A stretch of DNA of 64,000 bases, from contig NZ_CP117460.1 of NCBI RefSeq assembly GCF_030687145.1, positions 5,270,001 through 5,334,000 on the forward strand, given 5' to 3'. The position numbers were made by a program, and so were the translations under genes. Below, one piece after another: positions 53,178-59,779 of this stretch. Source of the stretch: Pseudomonas sp. FP1742 (lineage in GTDB: Bacteria > Pseudomonadota > Gammaproteobacteria > Pseudomonadales > Pseudomonadaceae). A model generated the notes under the pieces. It ran no database searches. It worked only from the letters and a program-made list of their open reading frames with translations, and was not told the DNA's origin. The stretch's first letter is position 1, and each line of letters opens with the position of its first letter.

Positions 53178-55232
53178 ATGTCCGAGCCACGCAAGATCCT
53201 CGTCACCAGCGCCCTGCCCTATGCCAATGGTTCGATCCACCTCGGCCATATGCTGGAATACATCCAGACCGATATGTGGGTGCGCTTCCAGAAGCATCGC
53301 GGTAACCAATGCATTTATGTCTGCGCCGACGACGCCCACGGTTCGGCCATCATGCTGCGCGCGGAAAAGGAAGGCATCACCCCGGAACAACTGATCGCCA
53401 ACGTCCAGGCTGAACACAGCGCCGACTTTGCCGAGTTCCTGGTGGACTTCGACAACTTCCACTCCACTCACGCCGAAGAAAACCGTGAGCTGTCGAGCCA
53501 GATCTACCTGAAGCTGCGCGACGCCGGGCACATCGCCACGCGTTCGATCACGCAGTACTTCGACCCGGAAAAGAAAATGTTCCTGGCCGACCGCTTCATC
53601 AAGGGCACCTGCCCGAAATGCGGCACCGAAGATCAGTACGGCGACAACTGCGAAAAATGCGGTGCGACCTACGCCCCGACCGACCTCAAGGATCCGAAGT
53701 CGGCAATTTCCGGCGCCACGCCGGTGCTCAAGGATTCCCAGCACTTCTTCTTCAAGCTGCCGGACTTCCAGGAAATGCTGCAAGCCTGGACCCGCAGCGG
53801 CACCTTGCAAGAGGCCGTGGCCAACAAGATCGCCGAATGGCTGGATGCCGGCCTGCAGCAATGGGACATCTCCCGCGATGCGCCGTACTTCGGCTTCGAG
53901 ATTCCCGACGAGCCGGGCAAGTACTTCTACGTGTGGCTGGACGCGCCGATCGGCTACATGGCCAGCTTCAAGAACCTGTGCGACCGTACGCCGGAGCTGG
54001 ACTTCGACGCGTTCTGGGGCAAGGACTCCACCGCCGAGCTGTACCACTTCATCGGCAAGGACATCGTCAACTTCCACGCCCTGTTCTGGCCAGCCATGCT
54101 TGAAGGCGCCGGTTTCCGTAAACCGACCGGCATCAACGTACACGGCTACCTGACCGTCAACGGCCAGAAGATGTCCAAGTCCCGCGGTACCTTCATCAAG
54201 GCCCGGACCTATCTGGATCACCTGTCGCCGGAATACCTGCGCTACTACTACGCGGCCAAGCTGAGCCGTGGCGTCGATGACCTGGACCTGAACCTCGAAG
54301 ACTTCGTGCAGAAGGTCAACTCGGACCTGGTCGGCAAAGTCGTCAACATCGCCAGCCGTTGCGCCGGTTTCATCCACAAGGGCAACGCCGGTGTGCTGGT
54401 CGCCGGCAACGCCGCGCCGGAGCTGACCGAAGCGTTCCTGGCCGCAGCGCCGAGCATCGCTGAAGCCTACGAGGCGCGTGACTTCGCCCGGGCCATGCGT
54501 GAAATCATGGGCCTGGCCGACCGAGCCAACGCCTGGATCGCCGACAAGGCGCCATGGTCGCTGAACAAACAGGAAGGCAAGCAGGATGAAGTCCAGGCCA
54601 TTTGCGCCCTGGGCATCAACCTGTTCCGCCAACTGGTGATTTTCCTCAAGCCGGTGCTGCCGCTGTTGGCCGCCGATGCCGAGGCGTTCCTGAACGTCGC
54701 CCCGCTGACCTGGAACGACCACGCCACCTTGCTCAGCAACCATCAGCTGAACGAGTTCAAACCCTTGATGACCCGCATCGACCCGGTAAAAGTGCAAGCC
54801 ATGACCGACGCCTCGAAAGAAGACCTGACCGCCAGCCAGACCGACACCGGCGAAGCCGCCGCGCCTCAAGGCAATGGCGAACTGGCCAAGGATCCGCTGT
54901 CGCCGGAGATCGAGTTCGATACCTTTGCCGCAGTCGACCTGCGTGTCGCGCTGATCCTCAAGGCCGAAGCCGTCGAAGGTGCCGACAAGCTGCTGCGCCT
55001 GACCCTGGACATCGGCGACGAGCAACGCAACGTGTTCTCCGGCATCAAGAGCGCCTACCCGGACCCGGCCAAGCTCGAAGGTCGCCTGACCATGATGATT
55101 GCCAACCTCAAGCCACGCAAAATGCGCTTCGGGATTTCCGAAGGCATGGTGATGGCAGCCGGCCCTGGCGGTGAAGAAATCTACCTGCTGAGCCCCGACA
55201 GCGGCGCCAAGCCAGGTCAGCGCATCAAGTAA
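53178..55232 (+). CDS. metG: Methionyl-tRNA synthetase
   Basis: A 684-residue class I tRNA synthetase charging tRNA-Met. HIGH box as HLGH ([10 protein letters not shown]), zinc knuckle [22 protein letters not shown] loop ([11 protein letters not shown]) and a C-terminal tRNA-binding domain (about 580-684, [18 protein letters not shown]). ATG at 53178; terminator follows. Length is typical for the dimeric form. Confidence 0.97.
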
Positions 55233-55361: not shown

Positions 55362-55931
55362 ATGACCGAACTGCTTCTTACGATTATCAGCGCTGCCCTG
55401 ATCAACAATCTCGTGTTGCATTGGCCGCTGGGCGTCGATCCAGTGCTGGGCAGCGAGCGGCAACAGGTTCACGCGCTGGGCATCGCGACGACGTGCCTGA
55501 TGCTGATCGTCGGCACGCTCGGCCATGGGTTCTACCACTGGCTGCTGGTGCCGTTGGGGCTGACATCGCTGCGACTGTTCGTGTTCCTGCCACTGAGCGT
55601 CCTGCTGATCGGCCCGCTGCTGAAGCTGCTTGCACGGTTATTTGCCAAGCTTTCATTCGACGGTCTCTGGCCCCTGCTGCTGGGCAATGCCGGCGTACTT
55701 GGGCTGACCCTGCTGAACGCTCAGGACGACAAGGGACTTTTCCACGCCATAGCCCTGAGCCTTGGTGCCGGGCTGGGTTTCTGGCTGGTGCTGAGCCTGT
55801 TCAGCGATTTGCGCCAGCGCACACTCGATAACGACATCCCGCTGCCCTTTCGCGGCCTGCCGATCGAATTGATCGGCGCCGGATTGATCGCGGTGGTTTT
55901 TCTCGGATTCAGCGGGCTGATCAAAACATGA
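55362..55931 (+). CDS. rnfA: RnfA/RsxA-like membrane subunit lacking cluster cysteines
   Basis: A 189-residue inner-membrane subunit with six segments. Gapless comparison with my recollection of E. coli RsxA shows the same frame: [17 protein letters not shown] against VNNFVLVKFLGLCPFMG, and [13 protein letters not shown] against TTNCAVLGVALLN. Both cysteines that hold one half of the membrane [2Fe-2S] cluster are therefore replaced (Asp26, Ala110). The C-terminal [20 protein letters not shown] is well conserved. Start at MTELLL; a short inverted repeat CTAAC/GTTAG (55323-55335) lies upstream. First gene of an overlapping operon rnfA-B-D-G-E-nth. Confidence 0.88.
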
Positions 55932-56953
55932 GTCTGATTCAACGCATCGATGCCCTCTTGCCGCAGACCCAATGCGGCAAGTGTGGCCATCCCGGATGCA
56001 AACCCTACGCCGAAGGCATCGCCAGCGGCGAGCCGATCAACAAGTGCCCACCCGGTGGCAGCGAAACCATCGCGGCCCTGGCCGAGCTGCTGAAAGTGCC
56101 GGTGCTGGAACTGGACGTCAGTCGCGGCTCGGCACCGGCGCAGATCGCCTACATCCGCGAAGCCGAATGCATCGGCTGCACCAAGTGCATTCAGGCCTGC
56201 CCGGTCGACGCCATTGTCGGGGCGGCGAAACTCATGCACACGGTCATTATTGACGAATGCACCGGTTGCGACCTCTGCGTGGCGCCCTGCCCGGTGGATT
56301 GCATCGAGATGCATCCGTTGCCACTGGCCACGGTGCTGCCGATTGTCGGCGGGTTGGCGTTCAGCCAGGAGGAACAACAGGCCCGGACCGCCAAGCGCAA
56401 CCGTGCGCGGCGCCGCTTCGAACAGCGCAATGCCCGCTTGCGCCGCGAAGAGGAACAGAGACTCGCCGAACGCCAGGCCCGCGCCCAACGCGCCGCACAA
56501 CCCAGTGAGGCGACACTCGACCCGGTGCAGGCTGCACTGGAACGCGTTCGCGCACAGAAAGCCGCCACTGCCGATGCCGCATTGAAAAAGGCCAAGGTCG
56601 ATCTGGCGATGAGTCGGGCGCAGTTGAACAAATCGCTCAAAGCCTTCGGGCATCCCCCGACCTTCGAACAGCAATCGCAACTGATCGTGCTGCAACAGCA
56701 GTTCGAAGCCGCCGAACAAGCGCTGGCGCAGCTGGAAAGCAGCGCGCTGCCGGCCTCCGCCCCAGCAGCTCCAGCAGCTCCAGCAGCTCCAGCAAACGAT
56801 GCCGAACTGAAACGGGCGAAGATCCAGTTGGCCATGCGCCGCGCCGAACTCAAGAAAGCTCAAACAGGCGACGCTTCAACCGAACAGATCGCAGCACTGG
56901 AACGCGCGCTTAGCGAAGCCGAGCGTCAGGTGGATGCCTATGCCGTCCCTTGA
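55928..56953 (+). CDS. rnfB: RnfB-like polyferredoxin, no membrane anchor, long coiled-coil tail
   Basis: A 341-residue iron-sulfur protein. Residues 1-50: [20 protein letters not shown] with C-x2-C-x4-C and a later CPPGG for one [4Fe-4S] cluster. Residues 75-130: two ferredoxin motifs, [14 protein letters not shown] and [15 protein letters not shown]. The N-terminal hydrophobic anchor found in typical RnfB is missing; the ATG overlaps the rnfA stop and no earlier in-frame start exists. From about 155 to the end it is a Glu/Arg/Ala-rich coiled coil with two similar units ([17 protein letters not shown] and [17 protein letters not shown]) and an AAP repeat, similar in style to the C-terminal tail of RnfC. 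It normally passes electrons to the membrane subunits. Confidence 0.88.
56762..56794 (+). repeat. In-frame 9-base tandem repeat in rnfB
   Basis: CCAGCAGCT is repeated three times and followed by CCAGCA, coding for an Ala-Ala-Pro run between the two coiled-coil units. Length could vary by slippage without frameshift. Confidence 0.8.
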
Positions 56954-57932
56954 ACCGGTGGACGAACGCCTTCAGCAGGCCATGAAGCTGGTATTGCTGG
57001 CCACCCTGCCGGGAATGCTGATGTTGTTCTGGCTGTACGGTTGGGGCGTGTTGATCAACCTGATTCTGACGGCAGCTACCGCACTGGCCGTTGAAGCAGC
57101 GGTGTTGCAGCTGCGCAAGCAACCTGTAAAACCGACAGTGAGCGACGGCAGTGCGCTGGTCAGCGCGACCTTGTTGGCCCTGGCCTTGCCGCCTTATTGC
57201 CCATGGTGGCTGACGGTCAGCGCTGCGACATTCGGACTTTTTTTCGGCAAGCACCTGTATGGCGGCGTCGGCAGGAATCCGTTCAACCCGGCGATGCTCG
57301 GTTTCGCCCTGGTTTTAGTGACATTTCCCCAGCAAATGACCCATTGGCCGTCGTCCCATGGCATGGACTTTCTCGCTGGCCTGCAACAAGTGTTCGGCTT
57401 CAACCTCGGCCAGACGCCAGACGCGTGGGCCCAGGCCACCGCGCTGGACAGCCTGCGAATCAACAAAAGCCTGACCATGGACGAACTGTTTGCCGGCAAC
57501 CCGGCATTCGGCCATTTCGGCGGCCGGGGCGTGGAATGGGTCAACCTGGCCTTTCTGGCCGGCGGCGTGTTTCTGCTGCAACGGCGGGTGTTCAGCTGGC
57601 ATGCGCCGGTGGGCATGCTCGCCAGCCTGTTCGTCATCAGCCTGTTGTGCTGGAACGGTTCGGGCTCTGACTCCCATGGCTCCCCATTGTTTCATCTGCT
57701 CACCGGCGCGAGCATGCTGGGTGCCTTCTTCATCGTGACGGAACCAGTGTCTGGTGCGAAAAGCCCTACAGCACGGTTGTTGTTCGGCGCAGGTGTGGGA
57801 TTGCTGACTTACCTGATTCGCACATGGGGTGGCTATCCGGACGGGGTGGCGTTTGCGGTCCTGTCGATGAACCTCTGCGTACCGGCGCTGGAGCGGTTCG
57901 CCGTATCCCGCAAGGAGCAGGCAGCCCCATGA
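56934..57932 (+). CDS. rnfD: RnfD/RsxD-like membrane flavoprotein
   Basis: A 332-residue inner-membrane subunit of about nine segments. [20 protein letters not shown] and [19 protein letters not shown] are hallmark RnfD/NqrB regions. The flavin-attachment site SQATPLD of E. coli RsxD is AQATALD here, so the Thr for covalent FMN is kept. It begins inside the end of rnfB (20-base overlap), leaving no space for an rnfC gene in its usual place. Confidence 0.9.
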
Positions 57933-58540
57933 ACCGAGCGACGAGCGTTGTGGTTCTGGTATTGCTGGCAGGCCTGGGGATTGGCGCGACTTACCTCATG
58001 CAGCACACCAGCGCTGCGCGCATTGCCGCCGAACAACGCCTGATCGACAGCCACAATTTGCTGGATCTGCTAGCGCCCGACAGCTACGACAATCAGCCAC
58101 TGGAACACCCCCTCAGCGTTGAAAACACTCACCTGGCCAACAGCACGCTGCTGGGTGGCTACCTGGCGACCAAGGCCGGCCAATCGAGCGCTGTCCTGCT
58201 GCGCAGCCAGACACTGGGCTACGCCGGCTCCATCGACCTGCTGATTGCCATCGACCCCCTTGGCAAGTTGCTGGGGGTCAAAACCCTCAAGCAATCGGAA
58301 ACCCCTGGGCTGGGCGGCAAACTCGCTGACTGGCCCAATGCCTGGCTTCAGGTGTTTACCGGCAAATCATCGACCGAACCTGACGGCAATGGCTGGGCCT
58401 TGAAAAAAGACCAAGGGCAATTCGATCAGATCGCGGGCGCAACCATCACCTCAAGAGCGGTGATCAATGCCACCCATGATGCATTGCGTTACTTCGATGA
58501 ACACCGGCAACCGCTGATCGGGAGCAGCGCCCATGAATAA
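57929..58540 (+). CDS. rnfG: RnfG/RsxG-like flavoprotein
   Basis: A 203-residue protein with one N-terminal membrane anchor (TSVVVLVLLAGLGIGATYLM) and a periplasmic FMN domain. The flavinylation motif AGATITS (canonical SGATxTS) with its Thr is present, as are LGVKTLKQSETPGLG and KKDQGQFDQIAGATITSRAV. Start overlaps the rnfD stop by ATGA and its end overlaps the rnfE start. Confidence 0.9.
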   Translation: MNRATSVVVLVLLAGLGIGATYLMQHTSAARIAAEQRLIDSHNLLDLLAPDSYDNQPLEHPLSVENTHLANSTLLGGYLATKAGQSSAVLLRSQTLGYAGSIDLLIAIDPLGKLLGVKTLKQSETPGLGGKLADWPNAWLQVFTGKSSTEPDGNGWALKKDQGQFDQIAGATITSRAVINATHDALRYFDEHRQPLIGSSAHE

Positions 58541-59144
58541 GTCATCGACCCTGCGGAACTCGCTGATGCTTACGCCTTTGATCGGCGCCACTGATTCGTT
58601 GGTAACGGCCCTGGGCGTGTGGCTGATGTTCGTTCTGGTGCTCAGTGCATATGGCCTTGGCATGGGCGCCTTGCGCTCGCGACTGATTCCGGCAACACAG
58701 TTGCTGGCCTGCCTCCTGGTGGCTGCCACGCTGACCAGTTGCGCGGAACTCGCCATGCAAGCCTGGTCACTTCAATGGCACCAGCATCTGGGGTTCTATA
58801 CCGGATTGATCGCCTTGCAGTGTGTGGTGCTGGAGCACAACGGTTTTTTCCAGAGCACCGGGCGTGATCGCCTGCGTCTGTGTGGCCTGTTCGGCGCCTT
58901 GATGATCGGCCTGGGCCTGCTACGCGAGTTTATCGGCAACGGGACACTGGGCAGCCATCTGTCCTGGCTGGCCGGTGCTCAACCGGATTGGCAAGGTTGG
59001 GTGCTCACCGCTGACGGTGGCCTGCGCCTGGCCACGCTGGCCCCCGGTGGGTTTATTCTGCTGGGACTGCTGATTGCCGCACGTCAGGCCTGGACCCGCC
59101 CGACATCCACATTGACCTCCTTCGAGGAAACGCATCGCCCATGA
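58533..59144 (+). CDS. rnfE: RnfE/RsxE-like membrane subunit with one cluster cysteine lost
   Basis: A 203-residue inner-membrane subunit, paralogue of RnfA. Compared with E. coli RsxE from memory, LGLCPLLAVTST corresponds to LMLTPLIGATDS (Cys to Thr14) and TNCIVVGRAEAF to ALQCVVLEHNGF (Cys97 kept, flanking residues changed). The later GLLREFIGNGTLGSHL and LAPGGFILLGLLIAARQ are family-like. So only one of the four ligands for the RnfA-RnfE cluster remains in this pair. Its stop overlaps the nth start (ATGA). Confidence 0.85.
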   Translation: MNKSSTLRNSLMLTPLIGATDSLVTALGVWLMFVLVLSAYGLGMGALRSRLIPATQLLACLLVAATLTSCAELAMQAWSLQWHQHLGFYTGLIALQCVVLEHNGFFQSTGRDRLRLCGLFGALMIGLGLLREFIGNGTLGSHLSWLAGAQPDWQGWVLTADGGLRLATLAPGGFILLGLLIAARQAWTRPTSTLTSFEETHRP

Positions 59145-59779
59145 ATGCCGCAAAACGTCTGGAAATTTTCCGCAGGTTTCACGAAGACAATCCTGAACCG
59201 AAGACCGAGCTGGCCTATTCCTCGCCGTTCGAACTGCTGATCGCCGTGATTCTCTCGGCGCAATCGACCGATGTCGGCGTCAACAAGGCCACCGCCAAAC
59301 TGTTTCCGGTGGCCAATACGCCAGCGGCGATTTACGCATTGGGCGTTGAAGGATTATCGGAGTACATCAAGACCATCGGCCTGTATAACAGCAAAGCAAA
59401 AAACGTGATCGAAACCTGTCGCTTGCTGGTGGAGCGCCATGGCGGTGAAGTGCCGCAGACCCGTGAGGCCTTGGAAGCCCTGCCCGGTGTCGGTCGCAAG
59501 ACCGCCAACGTGGTGCTCAATACTGCATTTCGTCAGCTGACCATGGCTGTGGATACTCACATTTTCCGGGTCAGCAACCGTACCGGCATTGCTCCGGGCA
59601 AGAATGTGGTCGAGGTGGAACAGAAACTGATGAAATTCGTGCCAAAGGAGTATCTGCTCGACGCCCATCACTGGCTGATTCTCCACGGACGCTACGTTTG
59701 CCTGGCCCGCAAGCCGCGTTGTGGCAGCTGCCGAATCGAGGACTTATGCGAATACAAGCAAAAAACCTCGGACGATTGA
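59141..59779 (+). CDS. nth: Endonuclease III
   Basis: A 212-residue DNA glycosylase/AP lyase that removes oxidised pyrimidines. Helix-hairpin-helix LPGVGRKTANVVLN with the catalytic Lys, VDTHIFRVSNRTGI with the catalytic Asp, and the C-terminal [4Fe-4S] loop CLARKPRCGSCRIEDLC (C-x6-C-x2-C-x5-C). It is the last gene of the rnf operon, as commonly seen in gamma-proteobacteria. Confidence 0.97.
   Translation: MNAAKRLEIFRRFHEDNPEPKTELAYSSPFELLIAVILSAQSTDVGVNKATAKLFPVANTPAAIYALGVEGLSEYIKTIGLYNSKAKNVIETCRLLVERHGGEVPQTREALEALPGVGRKTANVVLNTAFRQLTMAVDTHIFRVSNRTGIAPGKNVVEVEQKLMKFVPKEYLLDAHHWLILHGRYVCLARKPRCGSCRIEDLCEYKQKTSDD

Follow-up and report, generated by a model that had tools for sequence, protein, structure and literature searches.

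An rnf operon without rnfC in Pseudomonas sp. FP1742

The window analysed here (the whole 64,000-nucleotide stretch of contig NZ_CP117460.1 from Pseudomonas sp. FP1742) carries an rnf operon at positions 55,362 to 59,144 that lacks rnfC and that, as judged from its sequence, is a derived Rnf core that has lost the membrane iron-sulfur site. The genes lie on the plus strand in the order metG-rnfA-rnfB-rnfD-rnfG-rnfE-nth, each rnf gene overlapping the next and rnfE overlapping nth. The two cluster subunits were recognized by PF02508 (cut-off 23.8), rnfA (55362..55931, 189 aa) with 59.8 bits and rnfE (58533..59144, 203 aa) with 57.4 bits, and they scored far under the cut-offs of the more specific NCBIfam models, with 108.3 bits for RnfA (cut-off 229.3) and 71.5 bits for RnfE (cut-off 213.4). 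The flavin subunits, rnfD (56934..57932, 332 aa; TIGR01946, 367.1 bits, cut-off 207.05) and rnfG (57929..58540, 203 aa; TIGR01947, 148.7 bits, cut-off 102), exceeded theirs. Between rnfA and rnfD lies rnfB (55928..56953, 341 aa), whose product has iron-sulfur domains with all aligned cysteines and no N-terminal membrane helix. A second Rnf or NQR elsewhere that might supply the missing parts was ruled out, since the 6.67-Mb genome contains no Rnf-Nqr (PF02508) protein beyond the two of this operon, and thus no NqrD/NqrE pair with cluster cysteines, and no RnfC over the cut-off (best match 55.4 bits vs 245.95). No extra domains were seen in the five operon proteins; PF03116 was the sole domain match of RnfD, which gave no match to the NAD-binding domain PF00175.

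Residues of the membrane core

In Acetobacterium woodii, the [2Fe-2S] cluster between RnfA and RnfE is held by RnfA C25 and C113 and by RnfE C25 and C108, and mutating these cysteines is reported to have abolished growth and left the enzyme inactive (Kumar et al. 2025, PMC11889175; this and the other papers cited below by PMC number are drawn on as excerpts). The window RnfA aligned to the RnfA chains of the solved complexes 9eri, 7zc6 and 8ahx with E values of 3e-24 to 6e-21, and the two cluster cysteines of 9eri_A, 7zc6_A and 8ahx_A fell on Asp26 (GAT, 55437-55439; C25 in A. woodii) and Ala110 (GCC, 55689-55691; C113). In RnfE, those of 8ahx_E, 7zc6_E and 9eri_E fell on Thr14 (ACG, 58572-58574; C25) and on Cys97 (TGT, 58821-58823; C108), so that by sequence only one of the four ligands is retained. 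The first-pass annotation of this DNA had named exactly these four residues, and both the alignment to solved chains and the codons bore it out.

To these residues we added a table of 50 divergent, RnfC-less Pseudomonas loci (the window and 49 relatives) and 16 canonical ones, the positions being mapped by hand through the PDB alignments. Cysteine occupied the RnfA C25, RnfA C113 and RnfE C25 sites in none of the 50 divergent loci and in all 16 canonical loci; the RnfA C113 site was Ala, Gly, Thr or Val in 50/50. The RnfE C108 site was Cys in 46/50 vs 16/16, the four exceptions having Ser, Ala, Val or Met. In a further set of 59 loci from named records, neither RnfA site had a Cys (0/59 each), and the first and second RnfE sites were Cys in 0/59 and 56/59, respectively. 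A private mutation or an assembly error was consequently rejected, given that the loss extends over 50 and 59 loci and the state is common in the genus.

The first-pass annotation had also said that cysteines at shifted positions would speak against it. None was found in RnfA, where no alignment column had a Cys in at least 30% of the 49 relatives (a count that excludes the window) and where two of the 50 aligned rows, the window's included, had no Cys at all; shifted or substitute ligands were rejected on this ground. RnfE has a further conserved cysteine, C70, present in 41/49 relatives and in 120/120 close homologues, which is not a replacement ligand because canonical RnfE has it too (16/16). 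The same fact weakens the idea of a new redox relay formed by the thiols of C70 and C97 in RnfE, a candidate further weakened by the observation that C70 and C97 are not lost together. One locus with a split rnfA (L118) was left out of the Cys-column, residue and substitution-rate counts.

The flavin sites showed the opposite behaviour, as the first-pass annotation had held. The covalent flavin mononucleotide (FMN) threonine of RnfD, Thr169 in the motif AQATALD (57438..57440), was kept in 50/50 divergent loci, and that of RnfG, Thr172 in AGATITS (58442..58444), in 49/50, with one Ser. The riboflavin residue Asn118 of RnfD (57285..57287; N123 in A. woodii) was kept in 50/50, and the riboflavin Asp (D249 in A. 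woodii) was replaced by Glu270 (57741..57743) in every RnfC-less Pseudomonas locus read. In the 59 named-record loci, the RnfD triplet was Asn/Thr/Glu in 59/59 and the RnfG site was Thr in 56 and Ser in 3. Glu270 may tune the riboflavin potential.

Residues assigned to the Na+ path (roles taken from PMC11889175) had changed as well: RnfA T110 was Thr in 1/50 divergent vs 16/16 canonical loci, RnfE N107 was Asn in 1/50 vs 16/16, and R67 was Arg in 19/50 vs 16/16. Because both the cluster ligands and these Na+-site residues are lost, ferredoxin:NAD oxidoreduction coupled to ion pumping would be an unlikely activity for the RnfC-less complex. Constraint was then compared by pairwise Nei-Gojobori ratios of non-synonymous to synonymous substitution rates (dN/dS) for pairs with 0.1 < dS < 1, a crude method with non-independent pairs. 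Median values in divergent vs canonical loci were 0.42 vs 0.048 for RnfA, 0.58 vs 0.15 for RnfE, 0.22 vs 0.089 for RnfB, 0.32 vs 0.20 for RnfD and 0.48 vs 0.31 for RnfG, and those of the flanking genes were 0.12 vs 0.14 (MetG) and 0.06 vs 0.11 (Nth). Some divergent RnfE pairs exceeded 1 (maximum 1.49). Constraint thus dropped most in the cluster subunits RnfA and RnfE and least, as a ratio, in the flavin subunits RnfD and RnfG, although in absolute terms the dN/dS of RnfG is as high as that of RnfA.

Distribution of the core and the fate of RnfC and RnfB

The distribution was examined in 249 Pseudomonas genomes, whose gene states were assigned by family matches and not by reading each locus. 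Matches to rnfA were found in 179 genomes (31 over cut-off), to rnfD in 179 (175 over cut-off), to rnfC in 36 and to rnfB in 216. We counted RnfC as canonical above our own threshold of 550 bits, which five of the 36 genomes did not reach (G021, G057, G072, G093 and G103), and set aside three genomes with weak rnfD matches as presumed NqrB (G001, G147 and G164), keeping one that was also below the cut-off (G034). On this basis, 31 genomes had canonical RnfA and RnfC, 124 had RnfD and RnfB but lacked canonical RnfC (counted as A-B-D-G-E, for rnfA, rnfB, rnfD, rnfG and rnfE), 21 had RnfD and neither of the other two (counted as A-D-G-E), 61 had RnfB only and 12 had none; the core without canonical RnfC therefore occurs in 145/249 genomes. 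Loci were read at full length in 50 of these 145 genomes, together with the second locus of G022, a genome that carries both a canonical and an A-B-D-G-E set. The resulting 51 loci comprised 38 A-B-D-G-E loci (the window and the second locus of G022 included) and 13 A-D-G-E loci; seven RnfB-only loci were also read. As in the window, where metG (53178..55232, plus strand) matches the gene upstream of rnf in the relatives and nth (59141..59779, plus strand) overlaps rnfE, the RnfC-less loci sit after metG and before nth, metG falling outside the stretch in three of them (L096, L099 and L101).

Named records were scanned with RnfD from one of the A-D-G-E genomes as query, and the best 80 of 102 relatives included the 59 loci of the clade mentioned above, all with metG and nth, of which 34 were A-B-D-G-E and 25 A-D-G-E. 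Because some of their genomes recur in the genus sample, these loci are not independent of it. Among them are P. putida NBRC 14671, P. monteilii, P. mosselii, P. capeferrum WCS358 and P. plecoglossicida, and also a record labelled Pantoea sp. Ap-967 (L257) whose Pseudomonas-type A-D-G-E locus makes the label look wrong. In the genus sample, the rnfB match had an internal stop in at least two genomes (G195 and G207), and rnfA was split in L118, an A-D-G-E locus. As a separate observation, the lower-scoring RnfC of G093 (L128, 1219-5369) adjoins an RnfD-like gene away from that genome's RnfC-less operon, next to a putative ApbE gene; an RnfD-like frame was also seen in G057 (L129), and in both RnfD-like proteins (L128 and L129) the position aligned with the FMN Thr is a Val.

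An RnfD tree was built with 21 of the 38 A-B-D-G-E rows, five of the 13 A-D-G-E rows, 17 canonical rows and four outgroup rows. The 26 RnfC-less rows formed a single clade (99/97), sister to 16 of the 17 canonical Pseudomonas rows (98/96); the remaining canonical row, the extra copy of G022 that is not linked to metG (L126), fell outside on a long branch and was left out of the residue counts and of the MetG+Nth tree. The loss of the cluster is thus a lineage trait in Pseudomonas. A quick MetG+Nth tree required at least five changes of the A-D-G-E label (three of them forced by strong branches) and at least four of the RnfB-only label (three forced), so that separate and repeated losses of RnfB and of the A-D-G-E part are probable. 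The same tree suggested many independent origins, an idea countered by the single clade on the RnfD tree. Six A-B-D-G-E loci (L094, L096, L097, L099, L100 and L101) fell among canonical species on the MetG+Nth tree, with the rows of L096, L099 and L101 covering only 24% of its columns; as the two trees disagree on these six, transfer or differential loss is the more likely cause.

The first-pass annotation had tied the loss of the ligands to that of rnfC. Within the genus this held well, the 31 genomes with canonical RnfC being exactly the same 31 in which RnfA exceeded its cut-off, but rnfC proved not to be wholly gone, since a part resembling it persists on RnfB. The C-terminal tail of the window RnfB (residues 150-341; 56375..56950, plus strand) and the C-terminal repeat tail of RnfC from canonical Pseudomonas loci are homologous: phmmer matched the RnfB tail to the tails of 16/16 canonical RnfC with 78-174 bits, no shuffled tail being reported (0/960), and BLASTP, run with low-complexity filtering and composition-based statistics, gave a best E of 3e-5 in a small set. 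An RnfC-tail profile matched RnfB in 38/38 A-B-D-G-E, 7/7 RnfB-only and 30/34 named A-B-D-G-E loci vs 0/16 canonical loci, and with an RnfC-tail model 12/12 RnfB tails of this kind reached E values of 4e-8 or lower, shuffled tails remaining at or below 6.8 bits. The simplest account of the tail would be that an internal deletion in rnfC joined the 3' end of that gene to rnfB. Among the RnfB proteins of other genomes that scored highest with NF005415, no tail of at least 40 aa matched the RnfC-tail model significantly; in several other gammaproteobacterial genomes (L193-L207), RnfB ends in a shorter basic tail that looks by eye like the beginning of that of RnfC, the profile match not being significant.

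RnfB had changed at its other end too. The window protein starts 9 residues before the motif LLPQTQC, without the membrane anchor of Rnf, and hydropathy revealed no N-terminal membrane helix in 38/38 A-B-D-G-E, 7/7 RnfB-only and 34/34 named A-B-D-G-E loci, a helix that was present in 16/16 canonical loci. The 13 window cysteine positions were nevertheless Cys in 38/38 A-B-D-G-E, 7/7 RnfB-only and 31/31 canonical loci. RnfC frames that the hidden Markov model had mislabelled as RnfB were removed before the anchor and tail counts and the RnfB dN/dS. In the RnfB-only genomes (L119-L125), only the unanchored RnfB with its RnfC-like tail is left between metG and nth, which suggests that it has an independent soluble function. 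The window RnfB resembles the stand-alone RnfB family (PRK06991, NF005415), matching NF005415 over residues 2-269 with 252.9 bits, but stays under its cut-off of 281.

Outside Pseudomonas, a class-wide sample of 369 genomes gave an rnfA match in 241, over cut-off in 197, and 16 low-scoring genomes were picked by eye. Nine low-scoring RnfA sequences were aligned: six lacked both ligand cysteines (G256, G344, G368, G465, G499 and G615) and three, all of one family (f135), kept both. Five of the nine aligned RnfE had lost at least one ligand Cys, and G256, G368 and G499 had lost both. RnfC was over its cut-off in 8 of the 11 such genomes searched, including four from other gammaproteobacterial families with a ligand-less RnfA (G344, G368, G499 and G615), so the cluster can be lost with rnfC in the genome, and the two losses are not strictly tied.

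Seven loci from metagenome-assembled genomes (L284, L287, L288, L289, L291, L295 and L297), one of them Thiotrichaceae UBA973, had the order rnfA-rnfB-rnfD-rnfG with no room for rnfC between rnfB and rnfD, and metG upstream in 6/7. Their RnfA ligand sites were Asp and Ser (7/7), their RnfD had Asn/Thr/Asp (7/7) and their RnfG the Thr (7/7), and RnfB kept a hydrophobic N-terminus in the six of the seven where it was measurable. Six of these genomes carried one further, rnfE-like Rnf-Nqr protein elsewhere, beside nth. By eye, the first ligand position of this protein is taken by Ala in five genomes and by Thr in the sixth; the second, read in all but L315, is Ser in four and Cys in one (L314).

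Electron transfer without the membrane cluster

With the cluster site and RnfC lost and the flavin sites kept, the cut-down complex probably moves electrons in a different way from canonical Rnf. The reading that we favour, at a probability of about one half, is a flavin-only conduit made up of RnfD and RnfG, for which RnfA-RnfE serve as a cluster-free scaffold, RnfB being a separate soluble carrier. The entry point would be the riboflavin on the cytoplasmic side of RnfD, which the quinol pool or a soluble flavoprotein would supply; electrons would then pass to the covalent FMN of RnfD and from there to that of RnfG, which would deliver them to a periplasmic acceptor. In canonical complexes RnfG swings between RnfA-E and RnfD (review, PMC12174285); RnfA-RnfE would here stay as the docking or swing partner of RnfG, taking no part in electron conduction or ion coupling, and RnfB would work alone as a soluble poly-ferredoxin. 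Ligand loss alongside retained flavin sites, the replaced ion-path residues, the stronger relaxation in RnfA and RnfE, the unanchored RnfB with its RnfC-like tail and the single clade on the RnfD tree speak for this reading. The separability of the modules in the genus (124 A-B-D-G-E, 21 A-D-G-E and 61 RnfB-only genomes of 249) argues for it too, as do the seven metagenomic loci, which also lack rnfC in place and keep the RnfD and RnfG threonines.

Several observations weigh against the favoured reading. RnfA N112 was kept in 47/50 divergent loci, the RnfE gate leucine L103 in 48/50 and RnfE Cys97 in 46/50, although it is not obvious why a scaffold alone should need these residues. The exchange of the riboflavin Asp for Glu (50/50 divergent vs Asp in 16/16 canonical loci) weakens the case for riboflavin binding. 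Single-chain structure prediction for RnfA and RnfE reached a moderate quality (mean predicted local distance difference test scores of 67.0 and 65.8); in Foldseek, the RnfA model matched 9eri_A and 8ahx_A at E 2e-4, and the RnfE model gave no match at E 0.001, with NqrD and RnfE chains at the top of its list. Finally, dN/dS was raised in all five subunits and the locus was often lost across the 249 genomes, both of which decay would predict.

Decay is indeed the main rival, a relic with little or no function that has been eroding stepwise since RnfC and the cluster were lost. It accounts for RnfC-less dN/dS values 1.5 to 9 times the canonical ones, with RnfE pairs reaching 1.49, for the 61/249 genomes with RnfB only and the 12/249 with nothing, and for the split rnfA of L118 and the stop inside the RnfB match of G207, a genome that bears RnfD. 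However, median dN/dS was below 1 for every subunit, each subunit was one open frame in the other 50 RnfC-less loci fetched, the FMN threonines were kept as described (one RnfG Ser in 50 loci), position 270 of RnfD was Glu in 50/50 and 59/59, and RnfA D149, R153, P160, G165 and P167 were each conserved in 49/49 relatives, so we regard a relic as rather unlikely.

The other two alternatives keep a route through or around the old cluster site, and both appear improbable to us. RnfA-RnfE might bind another metal or redox group there through Cys97 together with Asp26 or other residues, the transmembrane path still running through them. Cys97 is retained in 46/50 loci, RnfA position 26 is Asp in 32/38 A-B-D-G-E loci and the site is also Asp in the 7/7 metagenomic RnfA, but in the 12 A-D-G-E loci this position varies (four Glu, two Gln, two Asp, two gaps, one Thr and one Pro), next to an alignment gap at L23 in 11/12 of them (6/38 in A-B-D-G-E loci); moreover, Cys97 gives way to Ser, Ala, Val or Met in 4/50 loci, and the second RnfA position holds Ala, Gly, Thr or Val at every one of the 50 loci. 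Alternatively, RnfB might feed the membrane part directly, its RnfC-like tail docking at RnfD or RnfG so that the lost cluster is bypassed. Such an arrangement would fit the position of rnfB inside an overlapping operon, its 13 aligned cysteines (kept in 38/38) and the resemblance of the tail to RnfC, which accepts electrons from RnfD in canonical Rnf (PMC12174285). It fits poorly with the occurrence of RnfB and A-D-G-E apart from each other (61 and 21 of 249 genomes), with the lack of a membrane anchor on RnfB and with the location of RnfG and of the RnfD FMN on or near the periplasmic side (PMC12174285).

The first-pass annotation had proposed that the whole electron route from the cytosolic entry to the membrane cluster had been rebuilt. 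This went too far: neither a substitute ligand nor an extra domain was seen in the five operon proteins, several Na+-path residues are gone, RnfB has lost its anchor and 21/249 genomes have RnfD without any RnfB match. The iron-sulfur route from the cytosol to the membrane cluster is better described as dismantled, and RnfB as having become separable. More tentatively, and with the odds somewhat against us, an iron-free, flavin-only transmembrane conduit may have arisen from an ion-pumping Rnf, with a single origin in Pseudomonas and an apparently separate one, with another gene arrangement, in a second lineage of Gammaproteobacteria; in Pseudomonas, RnfB would at the same time have been released from the membrane, have taken the RnfC tail and have become an independent soluble carrier.

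Canonical Rnf (RnfABCDGE; 8ahx, 7zc6, 9eri) shares with the window operon the homologous A, B, D, G and E subunits, the gene order apart from rnfC, the covalent-FMN threonines of RnfD and RnfG and the riboflavin Asn of RnfD, but the window has no RnfC, a helix-less RnfB with an RnfC-like tail, three of the four RnfA/RnfE cluster cysteines gone, Glu for the riboflavin Asp and several changed Na+-path residues. A flavin-only conduit would parallel the one-way transfer through RnfD-like and RnfG-like proteins, with no iron-sulfur route, that has been proposed for two-subunit Nqr/Rnf-like systems (Meheust et al. 2021, PMC8238504; preprint PMC10979944). In the excerpts of these papers, however, only two subunits are described, whereas the window retains RnfA and RnfE; their RnfD-like protein carries a C-terminal PF00175, whereas the window RnfD has only PF03116; and their NqrB/RnfD-like subunit lacks the conserved Thr (figure legend of PMC10979944) that the window has. 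Na+-NQR offers a parallel in subunit loss, being hypothesized to derive from an Rnf that lost RnfB and whose RnfC was reduced to a structural subunit (PMC4014512), but NQR keeps the [2Fe-2S] cluster in NqrD/NqrE (PMC12174285), and the only two PF02508 proteins of this genome are the RnfA and RnfE of the operon. Among the open-access papers listed in literature searches, judged by title and start of abstract, none dealt with an Rnf that lacks RnfC or the RnfA-RnfE cluster, which is weak evidence of novelty, as subscription papers lay mostly outside that search.

The membrane-core cofactors, the RnfA-RnfE cluster included, are described as strictly conserved between Rnf and Nqr (PMC12174285) and the cluster cysteines as essential in A. 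woodii (PMC11889175, both as excerpted), yet the RnfC-less Pseudomonas loci read have all lost cluster ligands and kept the FMN sites. An "RnfA/RnfE" or "electron transport complex" label on a Pseudomonas record of this kind should accordingly not be taken to mean an energy-conserving Rnf. The RnfC-less core allows a direct test of what RnfD and RnfG do alone, and lets the role of RnfA-RnfE without a cluster, and the uncoupling of redox chemistry from ion pumping, be tested.

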